From positions 13,411,837 to 13,475,836 of the forward strand of contig NC_087073.1 of assembly GCF_026151205.1 (NCBI RefSeq): DNA of 64,000 bases, read 5' to 3'. Below are positions 1-64,000 of this stretch, piece after piece. Origin of the DNA: Bolinopsis microptera (taxonomy: Eukaryota; Ctenophora; Tentaculata; Lobata; Bolinopsidae). The position numbers and the translations under genes were made by a program. A model generated the notes under the pieces. The model made no database searches and was not told the DNA's origin. It worked only from the letters and a program-made list of their open reading frames with translations. Numbering within the stretch: position 1 is the stretch's first letter; each line of letters opens with the position of its first letter.

Positions 1-837
1 TTAAAGATAATTATAAAAACATAGAGGGATAAATTAACGTACAGTTAAGTCAAATTTATGACATCATCACACATCTCTGCAAAGTAACATCACACTATAA
101 TATGAAAAAAACATATAAATATTTCCCCATCAACATTAATAATTTATCAACTACAATTTTATTAAATATAATCAAATACATTGATATAGTGATATGAACT
201 TGAGATGTTAACTGTCATTATTTTAGTGCTACGGATTATACCCACATGATTGATTCTAACAAAAGAAATAACCCTCGCCCTGCAGAACGGGACAATGCGC
301 CACCAGAAAATTAAAAATAAGGTGCTAAAATCACGGCGGTATAACACTCGCCCCCATGAACTGACTGGCCCCTTTATCATACGGTACAGAAATACACTAG
401 ACAGTATGCCCTGTTTTACACGTCAGTTAATGGTTCTTTGGTAGGTGCTAATAAATCAGAACTCTCTATATAATGCCTCGCCACAGTGCACACAGACTGA
501 TGAATATACTGGTACTGGGAACTGGTAATAGTGTTTAGTTTCGTGGGTGGTACGATGATGAAGACATACATGATATTACTTTTAATGAACATTTGGCTGT
601 ATCATATTATTATGCAGTAGTTTAGTAATACCAAGACAATGTTAAACTTGATACGCTGTAACAGTATTATATGGTGTGTGTGGTATGTTGGTCATTACTA
701 CACGCTATCGTTACTACAGCTGTTTCCTGCTGTTTTAAAACAAAAGAAATTACATAACACTTCCGTTTGACAGAATCTAAAATCCGGTCGATCCTAATCA
801 GTTCAAGCTAAGGTCAGTTACTAGTTTACTTTTTAGC
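1..837. other. Non-coding AT-rich flank
   Basis: No convincing exon or RNA gene was seen. The two short ORFs near 162-444 overlap on opposite strands, lack splice context and resemble no family I recognise. The stretch ends where the left arm of the large inverted-repeat unit begins. Confidence 0.5.
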
Positions 838-842
838 ATAAT

Positions 843-1232
843 CACCCTACGCGCGTGGGGTGGACTCCTGGGGTGGACTTTTATTCAGCGCGTATTTTGT
901 AGCCTGTTCAACTTGACGTTTTGATTCGTTACTATCTCAATGTCACAGATACACAGAATGTGAGGTGATCATCTTAAAGAGAAACGTCTCAGCTTTCACC
1001 TGGTGTAAAGTTTATCTTTGTACTCAAAATATAGCTCGCTCAGTGTGCAATAGAAATTGACAATACAATAACCACGTCTGCGACCGGTCGTCAGATACCG
1101 GAGTGTTGCACAAAATTGGGTCCCTAAATTAAAATTCTATGACACAGTTACCATGCAGAAATGTCTGGAGTAACATTTGGTGAAAATTTGAAGGGTCTAC
1201 TGTAAATATTGCAAAAGTTATTGAAAACAAAC
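843..1232 (+). repeat. Left inverted-repeat arm
   Basis: This arm matches the reverse complement of 5357-5749. The outer ~350 bp is nearly identical, and the inner ~45 bp is more diverged (compare the CTACTGTAAATATTGC region with its partner). Confidence 0.85.
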
Positions 1233-2222
1233 TAGCTTAATCAGAAGTTTTTGGGGAAAATTTCAAATTTTGTACGTAGTGGGGTCTACAGGGGTGGACT
1301 CTTGCGGCGCGCATCTGACGGAGTGGCTTTTTCAACAGCCGTCAGTACGGCCAATATCAGAGCACAAATTATTGTGAGTAAGACCTTAATGATCAGCTAT
1401 GAACCCCTCACTAGAGTAGTAACCGTATCTAAAAACAAGGAAATGTTATTCTGTCAAAGCTCAAATTTTTTACTCTTCTCAGTGCAGTTAGTGTTACTAT
1501 GAATGTACTAGCTAAGTATCGTTGATCGTAGCTGCATTACACAGTAGAAAGTAACCAAGGAAGACTGCTGATTAACGAAGCAATTTCAACGTGAACAGTT
1601 CCAAAATACATAATCATGGCGACGATAGTTCAACTTGAACCTTTATAGTTTTTACAGTCTAAAATCACAATAAAATCACGTGAACTGCTAATCACAAAAT
1701 CAAATCACTCAAATCTGATAGTCCCGTTACAGTACGCTTTCGTGACAACCTCAACGCTTAAAAAATAAATATTATCCAGTCTTGTGACCACCGATGGCCC
1801 TAACTCTCCCTTGTCCGCGAGGAGCATCGTTGCGACCATGGGGTTTCAGTTCTTTGTTCTTCCCACTCGGCTTCGATAGATCGAATTGGCTGGAAGTCAA
1901 TCTATCAGAAAGACCTTTGTCGATCTCAGGGGCGTGGTAAATTGTGGATGTCGGAGTATAAAGCTTCCTGAAAAGATTGAGACATTCACTCGGTCTGTTG
2001 TAAATATCAAATAGTCCTTGTAGGCAGAGATTTAACTTATGTTGGGTTTGATAACTAGAGAAGGCGATTTGATATTCATTGATAGTATAAGCATATAAGC
2101 ATAAGTGATAAGTTTATATACCCTTTTTATGGTACCTCGAGGCTCGATATCTGTATTCAGTAATCATCACTCAAAATCTACTTATTAAATTTATTAACTA
2201 AACAAGTTAATGTATTACCGTC

Positions 2223-2848
2223 CTAGAGAGGTTTCCTGAGAATTTGAAGTCTCTGTAGGTTGCTGGCATGTCTACTAAGCTCTTCGATTGAGGAGTTTTG
2301 GACCCCTCGGCGGTCCAAATGATTTATAATGCTGTGGGCATTTTCAACATCTATCGAGGTAAACGCCCTCGCAGCATAACCTGTAGAGAATGAACATGTC
2401 ATCAATGTGAAGTTCAATGATAAAAATCAGAGTGGCCGATTTCAACGGGCAGAATTCTAATATCATGGCCATGGGGAATGGACTATTTTTTGTCGATTTT
2501 GCAAACCAAACTGGCAAACGATTGTTGATTTTCGTCACTAGTCTAAAATGAATGCAAACGTTCGGCCGAACATTTACATGATTAGAAACTTACCGGTTTC
2601 TTTCGTTATTATGTACAGACATGGCCGGGCTTGGGTTCCGCATACGATATCTTCTATCAGATTAAAGTTGAACCCACACTTTGTGTGGGAGGAGGAAAGG
2701 GAGGAGGAAAGCAAACGGAGACCTTTTCCATGAGCATCTCGTGTAGTACCATCATCATGTCGATTCTGATATCAGCTGCAAAATTCGTCTATTACTAAAT
2801 GCTAGCTTTTCGAACTTCGTATCTTGGAAATAACAACTTCTATGAAAG

Positions 2849-2893
<45 letters not shown>

Positions 2894-4481
2894 ACAAACA
2901 CATACACATACAGACATAGACACACACACACACAGAGACACAGACATACAGGCATACAGGCATAAACACAGACACAGACGGACACACAGACAGACACACA
3001 GACACATACAGACATAGACACACACACACACAGAGACACAGACATACAGGCATACAGGCATAAACACAGACACAGACGGACACACAGACAGACACACAGA
3101 CAGACACAGGAACACACAGACAAGGACACACAGACACACACCCACAAACACATACAGACATAGACACACAGACACAGGCATAAACACAGACACACACAGA
3201 CACAGACGGACACACAGACAGACACAGTACACACAGACACACACAGACACACACACATAAACACACATAGTTCACTTCAGTGCACTACATTACAATTACA
3301 GACACACGCAGTACAATCAGAGACACACACACGATACAAAGACAGACACAGACACAAACACACAGAGTACACTTCAGTACAATCACAGACGCAGGTACAA
3401 AGACATATACAAGAAGAGCAGATTGAAGTACCTTCATTTGCAGATGTTGACGCATTGATCTGTGGGATATGTTCTTCAGTCTGTAACTGATCATCTGCTA
3501 GAACTGTCTCATCTGGATCAACCGGAGGAGTATCTTCCGGCAGGAGTCTGAGTGGGTCTATCGGGACAGCCATGGATCGCTCTCCCTACCTTGTTGAATT
3601 AAAGACAAAGGTCAACGACGGATGTCGCATGTTAGTCCTGTAACTAAATGTAATCCAAAATAGTGAATAAATAATTTTTACATCTGAACGATTGTATGTC
3701 TGAATGGTGATTTTTAATCAATGAACAAAAGTTCAGGATTTTACCTTCTGTTAAGCTGTTAGCAATGACTCTAGCACCCTCTCCCTACAAAACGACCATA
3801 TCTCGGTCTGAAGCTTTAAACCGTCTTGCCTCAGCAGCCATCTAGCACAGTCGACCTGTCCTGTTAATTGTGTGATCATCAAGTTACCAAATTTAATCCT
3901 TCAATATTCAAATAATTGATTATTAGACAAAACAGAGTTTAGAGCTCGACGTATGCTTCAGGGTTTCACACTGTGCTGTAATCAAACGCATGACTAAAAC
4001 CTCTTGCTACTATTACCAATAAACCCATATTGTTAAGGCGGTCGAATGATTTACCTGAGTTGATCGCGTCCATGAAAGGGTTAAACTGCGTTCTGTCCAG
4101 CTTGTTAATGTCCGTTCCAGCAGCCAGCAGTGCCTCCGCCTCCGTCACTCTCCCTGCTTTGCATGGCCAGTGAAGCGTAGAGCTCCCCTCTAAGCTCTTT
4201 GACGATCCGACGAAGGATCCAGATTCCCTTCTTTTCTTTTGAGATTGCTTCAATTCTTCCTGGAGTATGCGGATTACCATTTATATACTTCCATACAGGG
4301 CGCGTGAACAATCAGCAATGAATTATCAATTAATCAATCTAGTTTTTGAGTAGAAAGTCCACAGATTGTGATACATTGGATTTGATATTGGAAAAGACAT
4401 AGCTTACCAAATACCTTTTCATGGGCTTTTTGGAGGACAGGGATGACTTATTCCTGCGTGCCATTACACCATAACTATCTG
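2223..4481 (-). CDS. Exon cluster, ankyrin-like protein (partial model)
   Basis: I see four minus-strand segments with plausible splice sites. Segment a is 4408-4481 (acceptor gttacag, donor GTAAGC). Segment b is 4055-4259 (acceptor ctccag, donor GTAAAT). Segment c is 3432-3573, starting at an ATG, with donor GTACTT. Segment d is 2223-2380 (acceptor ctacag, ending at TAG). Phases let a, b and d join in frame; c can also join d as an alternative first exon. Segment b encodes one ankyrin-like repeat ([11 protein letters not shown] followed by LLAAGTDIN). Segment c is acidic and proline-rich. Segment d (51 codons) matches nothing I know. All lie inside the inverted-repeat unit, so they may be a gene carried by a transposon, a gene interrupted by repeats, or a pseudogene. 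No transcript evidence is available. Confidence 0.4.
2852..3270. repeat. CA-rich microsatellite/minisatellite
   Basis: A pure (CA)n run of about 40 bp at 2851-2890 grades into a compound array of ACACAG, ACAGAC and CATACAGG units. A ~115-bp block (about 2900-3010) is repeated almost exactly at about 3010-3095. Long ORFs in every frame here (Cys/Val-rich on minus, Thr/His-rich on plus) are repeat artefacts. Confidence 0.95.
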
Positions 4482-26626: not shown

Positions 26627-26849
26627 GTGTCCCAATCCATCAATCATACAGGTGAACGATCTTTGAACACCTTCCAATTCAAGAATCAGTGACCAGTTTC
26701 CATGCCTAGCCCATGCCTGTGAACAATACTCTATATGAGGCTTTACTAAAGACTTATACAAGCACAGCATAACGCTTGTTTCCCTCAATATAATATTTCT
26801 TGTAAGCCAGGCAATGGTACCATTAGCTTTAGCAATGCACTTTCTCACT

Positions 26850-27225
26850 CTAGGTAAACTATAGGTAAAAATATAATATTAATCATAAGCTAAAATGTAC
26901 TAATCTTTGTATTCTAAATGGGGAAAAAGAAGAAACATTGTCAGTCAGTCGAGAAAATTGTCAGTCAGGCTATATGGCAGCTTTGTAGATGAATTGTGAC
27001 TATGCTAGTAGTGGTCCCAGGCTTGCGACTGGAATTGCGGTGTTAAATCGATTTAATGGTATACCAACGATCCACCTCCCACTTGTTGTTTGGTACTTAG
27101 CATTAATAGTGTTAGCTGTAGCCATTTATAGCAAGAATCTTAAAACTAAAGGGGATGACAAGGAAAAGAGGAAGGAAAAATAATAACGGAACAAACAATT
27201 AATTAAAGTATTTATAGGAGCATTT
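26850..27225 (+). repeat. ~375-bp dispersed repeat, copy A, with a small membrane-protein-like ORF
   Basis: It is nearly identical to the reverse complement of 63252-63622. It starts CTAGGTAAACTATAGGTAAA and ends near TTTATAGGAGCATT. Between an ATG at 26918 and TAA at 27181-27183 lies a reading frame of about 87 codons: a Lys-rich start (MGKKKKHC), a middle section, a hydrophobic segment (VVWYLALIVLAVAIY) and a Lys/Glu-rich end. Copy A has a 2-nt insertion near 26987 relative to copy B, which splits the frame. This copy is inserted inside the CR1-like LINE. I do not recognise the protein. Confidence 0.85.
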
Positions 27226-59424: not shown

Positions 59425-60276
59425 TTATGGACAAATATTAGAAATATTATCAAAAGCTAGGTGGAAATAAAACGTCTTTAGAGCATTTTTAAAACATTCT
59501 ACAGATGATAATGATCTCACTGAGTAGGGTAGTTCATTCCAAATTTTTGGTCCGCAAAACATAAATGCAGCATCCGTTCGTCTGAAATGAGGAGCAGGAG
59601 GAACTTTTAACAAATAAAAGTCATCATCTAGTCTGGAACTTTGTCTTCGTACTTCCCTTAGATTGATGTGTCCTTGTAAGTACTGAGGGGCTATGTTATT
59701 AAGACACTTGAAGACCAGAAGTGATATTTTGAACTTGATTCTGAACCGAACAGGTAAAAAGTGGAGCTTTTTGAGGTAAGGCATGATAGGTTCACGTATA
59801 TTTTTTCCGTAAAGACCAAAAATAAATCTAGCAGCATTGTTCTGTATCTTTTGTAGCTTATGGAGATTCTTTTCTGTTATACCATAATAGACTGAGTTGC
59901 AGTAGTCTATGAAACAGAGAATATTGGAGTGAACTAACTGAACTTTTAGTTCATGGGAAAGCTTTGAACCGATTCTTGATAAGTCCCTTTGATTCAAATA
60001 ACATACTTTGGACACAGCATTTATTTGAGAGTCCAGATTCATTTGGTGATCGAAAAGGAATCCCAGGTTCTTGGCCTTGCTAACAGGACAGATTGAGAGG
60101 TCTCCTAAATCCATTGTCTGGATTGGGCTGACATATGGTCCTATATCAATGAACTCTGTTTTTTCATCATTCAGTTTTAGGAAGTTAACTGTCATCCATT
60201 GCTTTATCTCCAGAAAGCAATTTTTCACAGCTGTTAAATCAGGATTAGAACTGTGAACATCGAAAGCAAAGTACAC
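59425..60276 (-). mobile_element. L2/CR1-like LINE, RT C-terminal half, open frame
   Basis: About 283 open codons on minus start just after where the catalytic YADD box would be (YFAFDVHSSNPDL) and continue with WMTVNFLKLNDEKTEFI, AKNLGFLFD, IDYCNSVYYGI, LQKIQNNAARFI, LHFLPVRFRIKFKISLLVFK and APQYLQ. They end with FRRTDAAFMFCGPKIWNELP. These are the standard post-catalytic blocks of L2/CR1-type LINE RTs. The 5' truncation falls at about 60275, exactly where the Penelope-like element begins in the opposite orientation. The frame is uninterrupted, so insertion was probably recent. Confidence 0.92.
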
Positions 60277-60277
60277 C

Positions 60278-63057
60278 TGTGTGTTAAACGTAATGGTAAA
60301 TTTTTCTCAAAATCCTTGAATAAATGGGTAACCCCTAGTAATGTCTTTTCTAGCACTTTTAGATGTTGCAATGGTAGAGGTTGTCTCACTTGCAACAGTT
60401 TTAATCCTGTTAATACATTTAGGAGCAGTACTTTTAATAATGATTTTATCTTTGGACATACAAATTTTATATTTAATTGTAAAACTAATAATGTTATTTA
60501 TGTTATTACCTGTTCTACCTGTAAAAAACAATATGTTGGAGAAACAACTCAACCACTTCATAAAAGAGTCAATAGCCACAGAAATTGTGTCAAAGCCAAA
60601 TCATCCACATTTTTATATGAACATTTTAATATTCCTGGTCACGTCTTCTCAGATGCTTCCATACAGATTGTAGATTATGTTGATTCTGACATGTCCACCG
60701 ATGTCAAAAATGATTTACTTCTCCTGGAGGATTACTGGATAGAGAAGCTTGGGACAGCATTCCCTCTTGGTCTTAATGACAAGAAGAAAGGAACGGGCAA
60801 CATCTCCCAAGATCGGGTTATGAATTATTTTAGTGGACAGATTGCTCGATACAAACGTGGCAGAGGGAATGGAAAGAAGAAAGTTCAGCCTAAGAAGTCT
60901 CTGGATACCATAGAGTCTGATATTAACAGGCTGAAAGATAACATCTTTTCAGAACATTCCATATACAAAACATTAAAATGTTATAGCTTATCAGATTTAG
61001 ACACTCTCTACTCTTTGAGTCAAAATAATTCAGGATTGATTTACAACGTATGTTCCTCTTTCTGTTCAACATTTTCCCCCAAATACCATCAGAACAAATC
61101 TGAATCCAGTAATAGAGAATTTATAATTGTTCCATTTAATTGCAAATTCATTGATAATCTTAACCTAAAATCTATTTTCTCTGACACTTCAGTCATTGAT
61201 TTGCTTCCCATTTTGATTCAGTCTTTTACACCATTACAGATTTATTATGAGTATAATGATCCTATAAGTCTTTCTATTTGTAACTATGCTTCATTCTTAA
61301 AGAAACTTTCTATTTCTGATATTAAATCTATTTTAGGTAGTCCATGCGATTGTCACTCCTCCCCTTTCAATTATCCTCCTCATGGACATGTAGTTACTGG
61401 TAATTTAGATATTGTTGATAATGTTGAACTTAGGGAAGTACTTTCCTACGGTTGTAAATACAGAATTCCCACATTTAAATCTCCAGATGAGATATATATG
61501 TCAGTTACCGAAGCTGTCGATAAATTTATAAAATCAAAAAGTAGAAAATACTGTCAAAAAGAAGTAAAGTTCAGCGATTGGAAGGAAAAAGTGTTATCAA
61601 TAGTTTCCAATCGTATTGAATATTACAAGAAAAACTTTCCTGAAACATTTAAAATAAATGAAAACACACTGGAAAAAGATGATGTTAAAAGAAGTCTTAA
61701 ATTGCTGAAAAGTAAATACATTATTTGTAGTATCGACAAAGCTTCTGGTAATTTTTCATTTATTTGTAAAAAGTTTTATGTAAAAACTCTTGTCAATGAA
61801 ATGGGTTTTGATCCTAATACTCTAGAATGTATAGGTAATGATACATATAAACCCTGTAGCGAAGACGAGACTCATTATGTCAATAAAATATCTGAGAGTC
61901 TAAAGGAGAGATTTAATGTACAAGTTGAAGATAAAAACTTGCGACTAGCACGCATCTTCTGGAACCCTAAGCTTCATAAGAACCCTTACAAGGCGAGGTT
62001 CATTGCAGGTGCCCGTTTTTGCGTTACGAAACAACTTAACGTCCAAGTTAACTGTTGTCTGAAACTTTTGAGGAAATACTTCAAGAAATACTGCGAGGCA
62101 ATCTACAACAACAGCGGTATAAACATGTTTTGGAGCATAGATTCCTCAAGTGAATTCCTTGAAGCTATCAAAAATAGCGATGTTTATAATATACAAGTAT
62201 ATGATTTTACTACTCTTTATACCAGATTAGACTTGATTGAAGTAGAGAATATGATTAATGAAGTTGTTGATTTAATATTTTCAGACCGTAATAGATATAT
62301 TTGTATTTCTAAAAGAGACAGTAATACATGTTTCTTTTCCAATAAAACCTATGATTGTCATGCCTGCTTTAGTCAAGATGACCTAAAAGAGGCTGTTAAA
62401 TTTATTATTTATAACACTTATGTCGTCTTCGGTGGGATTGTATTCATACAAACCAAGGGTATTCCTATGGGTGGAAATTCAAGTTCCCCTATAGCTGATC
62501 TCACTGTTGGCAAAAAGGAATTTAATTATATGAAACGTTTACTTCAGGAAAAGAAAATGGGATTAGCAAAGATATTATCCAATAACAAACGATATGTTGA
62601 CGATTTATCTATTATTAACTACCTTTACTTTCATAAATTGATTAAAGATATTTATCCTAATTCATTGGAGATGGAGCGAGCTGGTTCCAATAATAAAATC
62701 ATTAACTACCTTGATTTAAATATTAATATTTCCACAGAAGGACTAGAAATATCAGTGTATAACAAAACTGATGATTTTAATTTTCATGTTGTATCCCTTA
62801 CATTTCCTCACAGTAACATCCCAACCGAGGTTGGCTACAACGTTTTTTCTTGTCAAGTTCTTAGATATGGTAATGTTTGCACTAGATTGGATATCTTTAC
62901 CTCCCATCTTCACAAAATATTCAAAATTCTAATTGATAGAGGATATAGCCGTGATAGACTGATTAAAGGCATTAAACGTTGTCTGAGGAAATATGATAAC
63001 GTTTTCAGGAAGTTCGGTATTCTAGATGACCGTAACATTATTAAAGAACTCCCCTGA
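60278..63057 (+). mobile_element. Naiad-type Penelope-like element: N-terminal GIY-YIG endonuclease + reverse transcriptase
   Basis: One frame, open from 60253 (a GTG inside LINE-derived sequence; no ATG precedes the nuclease) to TGA at 63055-63057, about 926 element codons. Counted from 60253: Cys cluster (FRCCNGRGCLTC, 37-47), GIY-YIG nuclease (NNVIYVITC 79-87, KQYVGET 92-98, NSHRN, LEDYWIEKLG with the metal-binding Glu near 159), a basic linker, and a CxC motif (SPCDCHS, about residue 365). The RT has motif A DFTTLYT (about 651), motif B KGIPMGGNSSSPIADL (about 737) and catalytic RYVDD (about 780), then thumb. N-terminal GIY-YIG joined through a CxC segment to the RT is the permuted Naiad/Chlamys layout; Naiad is the animal group. 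There are no internal stops, so selenocysteine recoding need not be invoked. The missing start codon and junction with the LINE suggest slight 5' truncation. Confidence 0.93.
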
Positions 63058-63251
63058 TACCTTTTGATTTATTGAAACACGGGTACTAACTCTGCTAAAC
63101 TGAACAAATTCTGAAACTTAGGTGAATAAGTGTACAACGTGCTAAACCGAAGTTCAGACTGACCAGTGAAAATGGGCGAGCGTACCAAGTGTCATTTTAA
63201 TTAGAAGTTTTAGTCAGTGATTTATTATTGAAGCTTGTAATTACAATATCT
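63058..63251 (+). other. Probable 3' UTR of the Naiad-type element
   Basis: Non-coding sequence between the RT stop codon and the next repeat. No matching direct repeat (pseudo-LTR) was seen upstream of the element within the LINE. Confidence 0.35.
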
Positions 63252-63622
63252 AATGCTCCTATGAATACTTTAATTAATTGTTTGTCCCGTTATTCTTTTT
63301 CCTTCCTCTTTTCCTTGTCATCCCCTTTAGTTTTAAGATTCTTGCTATAAATGGCTACAGCTAACACTACTAATGCTAAGTACCAAACAACAAGTGGGAG
63401 GTGGATCGTTGGTACCATTAAATCGATTTAACACCGCAATTCCAGTCGCAAGCCTGGGACCACTACTAGCATAGTCACAACATCTACAAAGCTGCCATAT
63501 AGCCTGACTGACAATTTTCTCGGCTGACTGACAATGTTTCTTCTTTTTCCCCATTTAGAATACAAAGATTAGTACATTTTAGCTTATGATTAATATTATA
63601 TTTTTACCTATAGTTTACCTAG
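63252..63622 (-). repeat. ~375-bp dispersed repeat, copy B, with small ORF
   Basis: Reverse complement of 26850-27225 with few differences; both copies share the border CTAGGTAAACTATAGGTAAA. On the minus strand the ORF starts at an ATG at 63554 and keeps frame across the place where copy A is shifted. It then loses 2 nt near 63413 (GGTACC versus GGTATACC), shifting the part that encodes the hydrophobic segment. The two copies are thus broken at different sites. Confidence 0.85.
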
Positions 63623-63789
63623 ACTGCATACAAATGTATCGAGAAACCATATTTTGTGACAATTTCCTCAAGATCTCTGGTATACAATATGAGTTATCAA
63701 GCAATTAAAGTTTATCTTGTTAGCAAAATTGATTAGGTAATTAAGTTATACCGTAATTGGGCTTAAGCTTACTCTGTACAAAATTTGTT

Positions 63790-64000
63790 ATGGACACTGA
63801 CTGTGCCGATGATATGGCAGTGATGGATAATACTGAAAACAGGTTGCAAGAATCCACTGACCTCGTCGCTCACTACAGCTCTTATGCTGGGTTGAAGATC
63901 AACATCAACAAAAGTAAAACTTCTTGTCTGAATGAACTATTAGAACCTCAAGAAGCTGATCCGCATGTCTCTGCTACTAAAATGTTTAATGAGCCCAATC
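63790..64000 (+). mobile_element. Non-LTR RT fragment, cut by window end
   Basis: The frame reads DTDCADDMAVMDNTENRLQ, then YAGLKININKSKT. It corresponds to the (Y/F)ADD catalytic box (here CADD) and the following GL(K/R)(I/L)NxxKTK block of non-LTR reverse transcriptases. The frame is open to the window edge, so its extent is unknown. It differs from the L2/CR1-like copy at 59425-60276. Confidence 0.85.

Follow-up and report, generated by a model that had tools for sequence, protein, structure and literature searches.

Members of the Naiad clade of Penelope-like elements (PLEs) reportedly carry an N-terminal GIY-YIG nuclease with a CCHH set, a CxC linker, pseudo-long terminal repeats (pseudo-LTRs) and tandem copies. 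The CCHH set is reportedly absent from the Chlamys nuclease, and the insertion-in-fingers domain sits between motifs A and B' of the reverse transcriptase (RT). Canonical PLEs are reported to carry hammerhead ribozymes (PMC11167929, PMC7761336), and twister variants in Schistosoma RTE/Perere non-LTR retrotransposons are cited in PMC9695139 and PMC7761336. We analysed a window of 64,000 nucleotides (nt) from the ctenophore Bolinopsis microptera (assembly GCF_026151205.1, contig NC_087073.1, positions 13,411,837 to 13,475,836 of the forward strand), which contains a PLE copy with permuted domain order. This copy is likely a 5'-truncated member of a young, Naiad-type family (family A), in which each pseudo-LTR holds a twister-P5-like ribozyme. 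The permuted PLE is a known type. Its pairing with a twister-like motif was not found described: no PLE with a twister appeared in the titles and abstract openings returned for twister with Penelope, retrotransposons or transposable elements, and for Naiad or Penelope-like ribozymes since 2021.

The stop-to-stop frame at 60238-63057 (plus strand) comprises 939 codons with zero internal stops, as an earlier note on this DNA had claimed in describing a single uninterrupted frame of more than 900 codons. An N-terminal GIY-YIG nuclease, a CxC segment and an RT with YVDD follow one another in this frame, in the order given by the note. Pfam recognised the nuclease at frame residues 85-131 (60490-60630, plus strand, VIY..YVG; E=4e-6, 27.5 bits, cut-off 22.6). 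The CxC motif (CDC, 61345-61353, plus strand) and YVDD (62593-62604) were read directly in the translation, together with the other RT stretches (DFTTLYT, KGIPMG and YLDLNI; 62203-62724, plus strand, YVDD included), which we take to be motifs A to D. The element proper starts at 60284, where 11 of 11 other loci cut from the genome (designated by L numbers) begin to align, and not at 60253 as previously proposed. Positions 60238-60283 belong to the flank, where they overlap a non-LTR RT-like frame on the minus strand, and the coding frame lying wholly inside the element covers 60286-63057 (plus strand). With respect to the copy in L012, the window copy (60284-63623, plus strand) corresponds to unit positions 714-4053 and gives an ungapped blastn match of 99.4% identity that runs to 63623; it is therefore a 5'-truncated insertion with its 3' pseudo-LTR (63400-63623, plus strand), which in complete copies is repeated 3829 nt upstream, as judged from unit spacing and blastn.

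Searching the genome with the DNA of 60253-63600 gave at least 41 matches, all at 99-100% identity apart from one 98% piece, and the protein search listed at least 60 rows at high identity. These counts are lower bounds, having been scored on the best 40 of 494 and the best 58 of 601 candidates, respectively. Among the 60 protein rows, a stop-free frame of 924 codons was found in 15 besides the window and one of 927 codons in another, while one further 924-codon row contained an internal TAG. As far as sequence comparison goes, these multiple near-identical matches exclude a chance frame. Since the copies are nearly identical, family A is, by this measure, a young, multi-copy family, in line with the recent activity that had been suggested from the window. 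A complete copy is a unit of 3829 nt with pseudo-LTRs, and some of these units stand in tandem; the same 3829-nt distance separates consecutive twister motifs in L003, L005, L010, L011 and L012. All 12 aligned loci share the 3' end TTTAC(T/C)TAGA. At C1:9529667-9532927 two partial family A matches are reported with a 1242-codon frame. The short twister tandems in L038 and L044 were considered as retrozymes and rejected, as they are partial, 5'-truncated tandem copies.

The order of the domains was compared with a canonical PLE of the same genome, whose nuclease is C-terminal (L015). BLASTP paired the family A nuclease part (residues 23-115) with residues 626-727 of the canonical frame (E=1e-9), and the RT part (687-854) with residues 311-479, the latter weakly (E=0.001). 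By these alignments the two domains are swapped relative to the canonical element, which bears out the reversed order that had been claimed with respect to canonical Penelope elements. A second permuted family (family B, L013 and L014), 26% identical to family A in protein sequence, repeats the permuted domain order in its two frames (936 and 938 codons). The two families share the RT motifs in their protein alignment; the CxC segments are aligned (CDC in A, CNC in B), and C77, C80, H99 and H114, a CCHH-like set of the nuclease, are invariant. The canonical nuclease has Cys and His at places matching this set in the BLASTP alignment. From motif A to motif B' (62203-62460, plus strand) both permuted families have 85 residues versus 61 in the canonical frame, and the 24 extra residues fall where an insertion-in-fingers domain would be expected. 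Pseudo-LTRs and tandem copies are indicated by the twister pairs 3829 nt apart in the five family A loci, and L013 of family B likewise has two twister sites. Domain order, CxC, CCHH-like set and pseudo-LTRs together support the assignment of the element to the Naiad-type permuted PLEs. Hammerheads were not matched up to E=1 in L003, L013 and L014, nor in the canonical loci L015-L017, so this feature does not discriminate. No reference PLEs were found in the viral or general genome contig collections; the viral one gave a single locus, encoding a 254-residue GIY-YIG protein amid phage-like genes. A second canonical family with C-terminal nuclease, 42% identical to the first, lies on the opposite strand at L015:3077-4489 (minus strand).

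Within the 3' pseudo-LTR of the window copy, cmscan matched the twister-P5 model RF02684 at 63400-63457 (plus strand; 28.8 bits, E=0.0032, gathering score 37.6), with predicted cleavage at the U/A step 63429/63430. When 12 loci were scanned jointly, RF02684 was the sole ribozyme family matched up to E=1. L003, L014 and the two pseudo-LTRs of L013 all gave sense-strand matches to it, and the canonical loci L015-L017 gave none at the same threshold. A search of the whole genome listed 42 matches up to E=1 among the best 80 of 5890 candidates, with 34.3 bits (E=0.002) for the best and 28.8 bits (E=0.05) for a typical family A hit. Those that were opened (L013, L018-L022, L024, L025, L119 and L120) proved to be pseudo-LTRs of family A or B type or short elements. 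Allowing up to 3 mismatches, the cores of families A and B occur 304 and 116 times, respectively, and the reversed patterns used as controls 0 times. According to a review, twister cuts its RNA between a U and an A, loop L4 forms pairs with L1 and L2, and cleavage does not require stem P1 (PMC6154101). In family B, the arms of P1 leave about 2 nt for a loop. Of the 12 family B-type haplotypes, 11 keep every P2 base pair, with C-G, U-A and G-U alternatives and changes on both sides between haplotypes. The haplotype set has 32 rows from 30 distinct sites (L122 duplicates one L013 site, and L121 one L097 site), and the expression used for family B-type haplotypes misses L127, L128 and L135; the L127/L128 variant scores 21 bits. 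All 7 hand-picked variants, which were dissected manually, can form P2, P4 and a two-pair T1. The minimum free energy (MFE) fold of family A has the twister outline with P1, P2 and P4, and P2 and P4 are formed in those of L014 and L022. As regards other twister types, a genome search for Twister-P1 gave two matches, none above cut-off, one of them at C5:18491015-18491098 (44.4 bits, E=1.5e-6, cut-off 67.2).

Copies in the genome tend to have their 5' ends close to the predicted cut. Twelve independent breaks fell between 2 nt downstream and 31 nt upstream of it, a span counted as 36 nt, versus 8 in the next 106 nt upstream, and 5 of the 20 lay within 2 nt of the U/AA cut. Under an even spread, the binomial probabilities are 0.001 for the near-cut excess and 0.0005 for the breaks within 2 nt. 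We examined 102 exact-core sites, including second sites of tandem loci and the two in the window; exact core hits in the genome number 272, and the first 100 of them were listed, so that the sample is non-random, and break calls were cleaned by hand. L100-L103 were chosen for the absence of the TTAA upstream of the first core. Before counting, we dropped L103 (a mutated copy), L024, L048, L057 and L060 (internal deletions or insertions), L062, L071 and L111 (same junction as L061) and L069 (ambiguous, near the edge). Most of the listed sites left out were 3' pseudo-LTRs whose copies had been aligned across this region before; five were left out without this check (C3:3369287, C3:10496402, C3:10983519, C3:11305380 and C5:11988350).

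From these observations we infer the following life cycle. The N-terminal GIY-YIG nuclease would nick the target, and the fused, presumably telomerase-like RT would copy the element RNA from the nick. The twister of the pseudo-LTR would probably cut tandem or read-through transcripts at U/AA near the unit start, and a large share of the template would thereby acquire its 5' end. Reverse transcription would begin some 220 nt downstream of where the next twister starts, which would give the common 3' end. The RNA of these permuted PLEs is probably processed by twister, as far as motif and break positions can tell.

Several results weigh against this reading, and two other explanations were considered. 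As for the protein, GIY-YIG was the sole Pfam match in the frame up to E=1 and the RT domain had none; sequence searches of solved structures gave no match up to E=1, and an AlphaFold2 model from the two-row alignment of families A and B was discarded (pLDDT 31). Because hhalign of the family A/B against the canonical alignments reported the nuclease part alone (97%), the relation of the RT to that of canonical PLEs is drawn from the weak BLASTP match and the motifs. Recognition of the GIY-YIG part only is what one would expect if two unrelated neighbours, a GIY-YIG gene and a PLE RT, had been joined in one frame by chance. The other copies refute this idea, to which we assign a virtually negligible probability: the fused frame is kept at 99% identity in the 15 copies of 924 codons and the one of 927, and the same order recurs in both family B frames. 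The earlier note had named a GIY-YIG part belonging to a separate adjacent element as what would overturn its interpretation, and in the copies nuclease and RT stay in one frame.

As for the RNA, all twister-P5 scores (21 to 34.3 bits) are below the gathering score, and a scan of the window at gathering level gave no match. Eight of 14 control genomes also match RF02684 up to E=1, none above cut-off, and therefore little weight attaches to the weakest of the hits listed. In one family B subfamily, represented by 7 distinct sites, the outer P2 pair is a U-U mismatch. The family A fold is not exceptional (z -1.29, with 20 of 200 shuffles equally good), those of L013, L018 and L022 are no better than shuffles, and the MFE structures of L013, L018 and L020 lack the twister outline. 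Of the 12 near breaks, seven miss the cut by 8-31 nt on its upstream side; cleavage is therefore not the sole source of 5' ends. Moreover, insertions retain an uncut 3' twister, which implies that part of the RNA escapes cutting. The scores, the displaced breaks and the uncut 3' motifs would all fit a permuted PLE in which the motif does not cleave, being a fossil, a structural element or a protein-binding site in the RNA, with the 5' pile-up arising from RT stalling at the hairpin or from a nearby transcription start; in a Poseidon PLE, moreover, hammerhead mutants were without effect on insertion in vitro (PMC11167929). We consider this explanation rather unlikely. It has to contend with a twister core that recurs in two families 26% identical, each time on the sense strand of a pseudo-LTR, with P2 changes that preserve full pairing in all but one haplotype, and with the quarter of the breaks that fall no more than 2 nt from the bond predicted to be cut. 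A twister that probably cleaves is the reading we retain.

A separate question is how family A is translated. The earlier note had regarded an ATG as the only piece missing from this copy. The absence is instead a family trait, because 11 of 11 other loci have TGA directly before the first codon, CTT; the in-frame sequence at the N-terminus reads ATG ATG TTA CCT TCT TGA CTT. Family B has its own start ATG, which aligns with the family A CTT, a weak argument as both proteins were entered from that residue. It is possible that family A starts via selenocysteine, read-through, a 5' intron, a +1 shift or non-AUG initiation. Selenocysteine-coding Naiads are reportedly found in clams and spiders. 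Reading of the in-frame TGA as selenocysteine, or its read-through, would agree with the pair of in-frame ATGs five and six codons upstream of the TGA-CTT junction and with a tRNA-Sec above its cut-off in the genome. We nevertheless deem it improbable, since no selenocysteine insertion sequence was matched up to E=10 in window 60200-64000 or up to E=1 in L003, the family B ATG aligns, with the reservation just given, with the CTT codon itself, and a 5' intron, a +1 shift from an upstream frame or non-AUG initiation fit equally well. A splice scan of the 5' region showed weak donors only (e.g. for the ATG at unit 469, 0-based, a donor of score 6.0 with several acceptors). In L003, about 490 nt, partly GC-rich, separate the pseudo-LTR-like part from the open reading frame (ORF; unit ~225-712), and a short overlapping frame in this stretch terminates at the ORF start.

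The same genome contains elements of about 155 nt (length determined by hand in L132) that carry a family B-type twister and the tail of family B and have their common 5' start close to AAACTAATTACAACACTAC. Seven of 20 sites fetched are of this short type (L123-L126, L129, L132 and L140), as are L019 and L020, and the L132 element is inserted in a CTTAATACA repeat. These elements differ in twister type, which corresponds to one family B subfamily or another, and their 3' halves may have been acquired repeatedly from autonomous copies. As for hammerheads, the Hammerhead_1 search gave at least 74 matches (the best 74 of 35411 candidates), 67 of them above cut-off. Several form tandem arrays with a spacing of about 277 nt, like animal retrozymes; arrays above cut-off include C1:2501259-2502413, C6:1742030-1743465 and C12:3490124-3491831. 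Three listed matches, on C4, C6 and C12, lie within 1 kb of a GIY-YIG match, as seen by comparing the lists by eye. A hammerhead regular expression gave five hits in L003, L013 and L015-L017, that in L013 being antisense. Because the hammerhead model is unmatched in L015-L017, which may not span whole pseudo-LTRs, hammerhead use by canonical PLEs is taken here from the literature (PMC11167929, PMC7761336).

Elsewhere in the window, a second, short family A fragment at 26849-27224 (minus strand) comprises a 3' pseudo-LTR with the twister core and is 98.1% identical to unit 3682-4053 (blastn). The insertion is flanked on its 5' side by a non-LTR RT-like fragment outside the element (59425-60283, minus strand), which resembles an RT-like frame in L016 (BLASTP E=3e-9) and has no Pfam match. 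On its 3' side, an open frame at 63757-63999 (plus strand) resembles a piece of a non-LTR RT, its ADD motif being presumably a mark of this type of enzyme.

On balance, we favour the view that the permuted PLEs of B. microptera use twisters in the position that hammerheads occupy in canonical PLEs. This would be a ribozyme swap at an equivalent point of the life cycle, maintained in two families that are 26% identical, and the ~155-nt twister elements would parasitise it much as hammerhead retrozymes are believed to do with canonical PLEs. The role of the pseudo-LTR ribozyme is an open question, as hammerhead mutants still insert in vitro in one PLE (PMC11167929). If the swap is true, the presence in permuted PLEs of an unrelated ribozyme at the corresponding position would argue that self-cleavage is under selection there, and would provide a natural comparison. 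Biochemical work on a permuted PLE could also draw on this genome, with its many near-identical copies that have open frames.

With Naiad, as reported, the families described here share the N-terminal GIY-YIG with CCHH, the CxC linker, a lengthened interval from motif A to motif B' of the RT, tandem copies, pseudo-LTRs and the lack of a hammerhead match. They differ in the twister-P5-like motif of the pseudo-LTR and, for family A, in the absence of an in-frame ATG and in the ~490 extra nt before the ORF. The likeness to Penelope/Poseidon lies in the GIY-YIG nuclease and telomerase-like RT, the units with pseudo-LTRs in tandem, a small ribozyme close to where the unit begins, and 3' tails with defined ends, whereas in those elements the nuclease is C-terminal and the ribozyme a hammerhead (PMC11167929). 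The RTE/Perere elements likewise have a twister in a retroelement RNA, at the 5' end in the RTE case, but their RT class is unrelated, and the available portions of the reports do not mention tandem pseudo-LTR units for them (PMC9695139, PMC7761336). Finally, the ~155-nt elements resemble animal hammerhead retrozymes (PMC7761336) in being small, non-autonomous ribozyme elements beside autonomous PLEs, and unlike them they carry a twister and stand alone.
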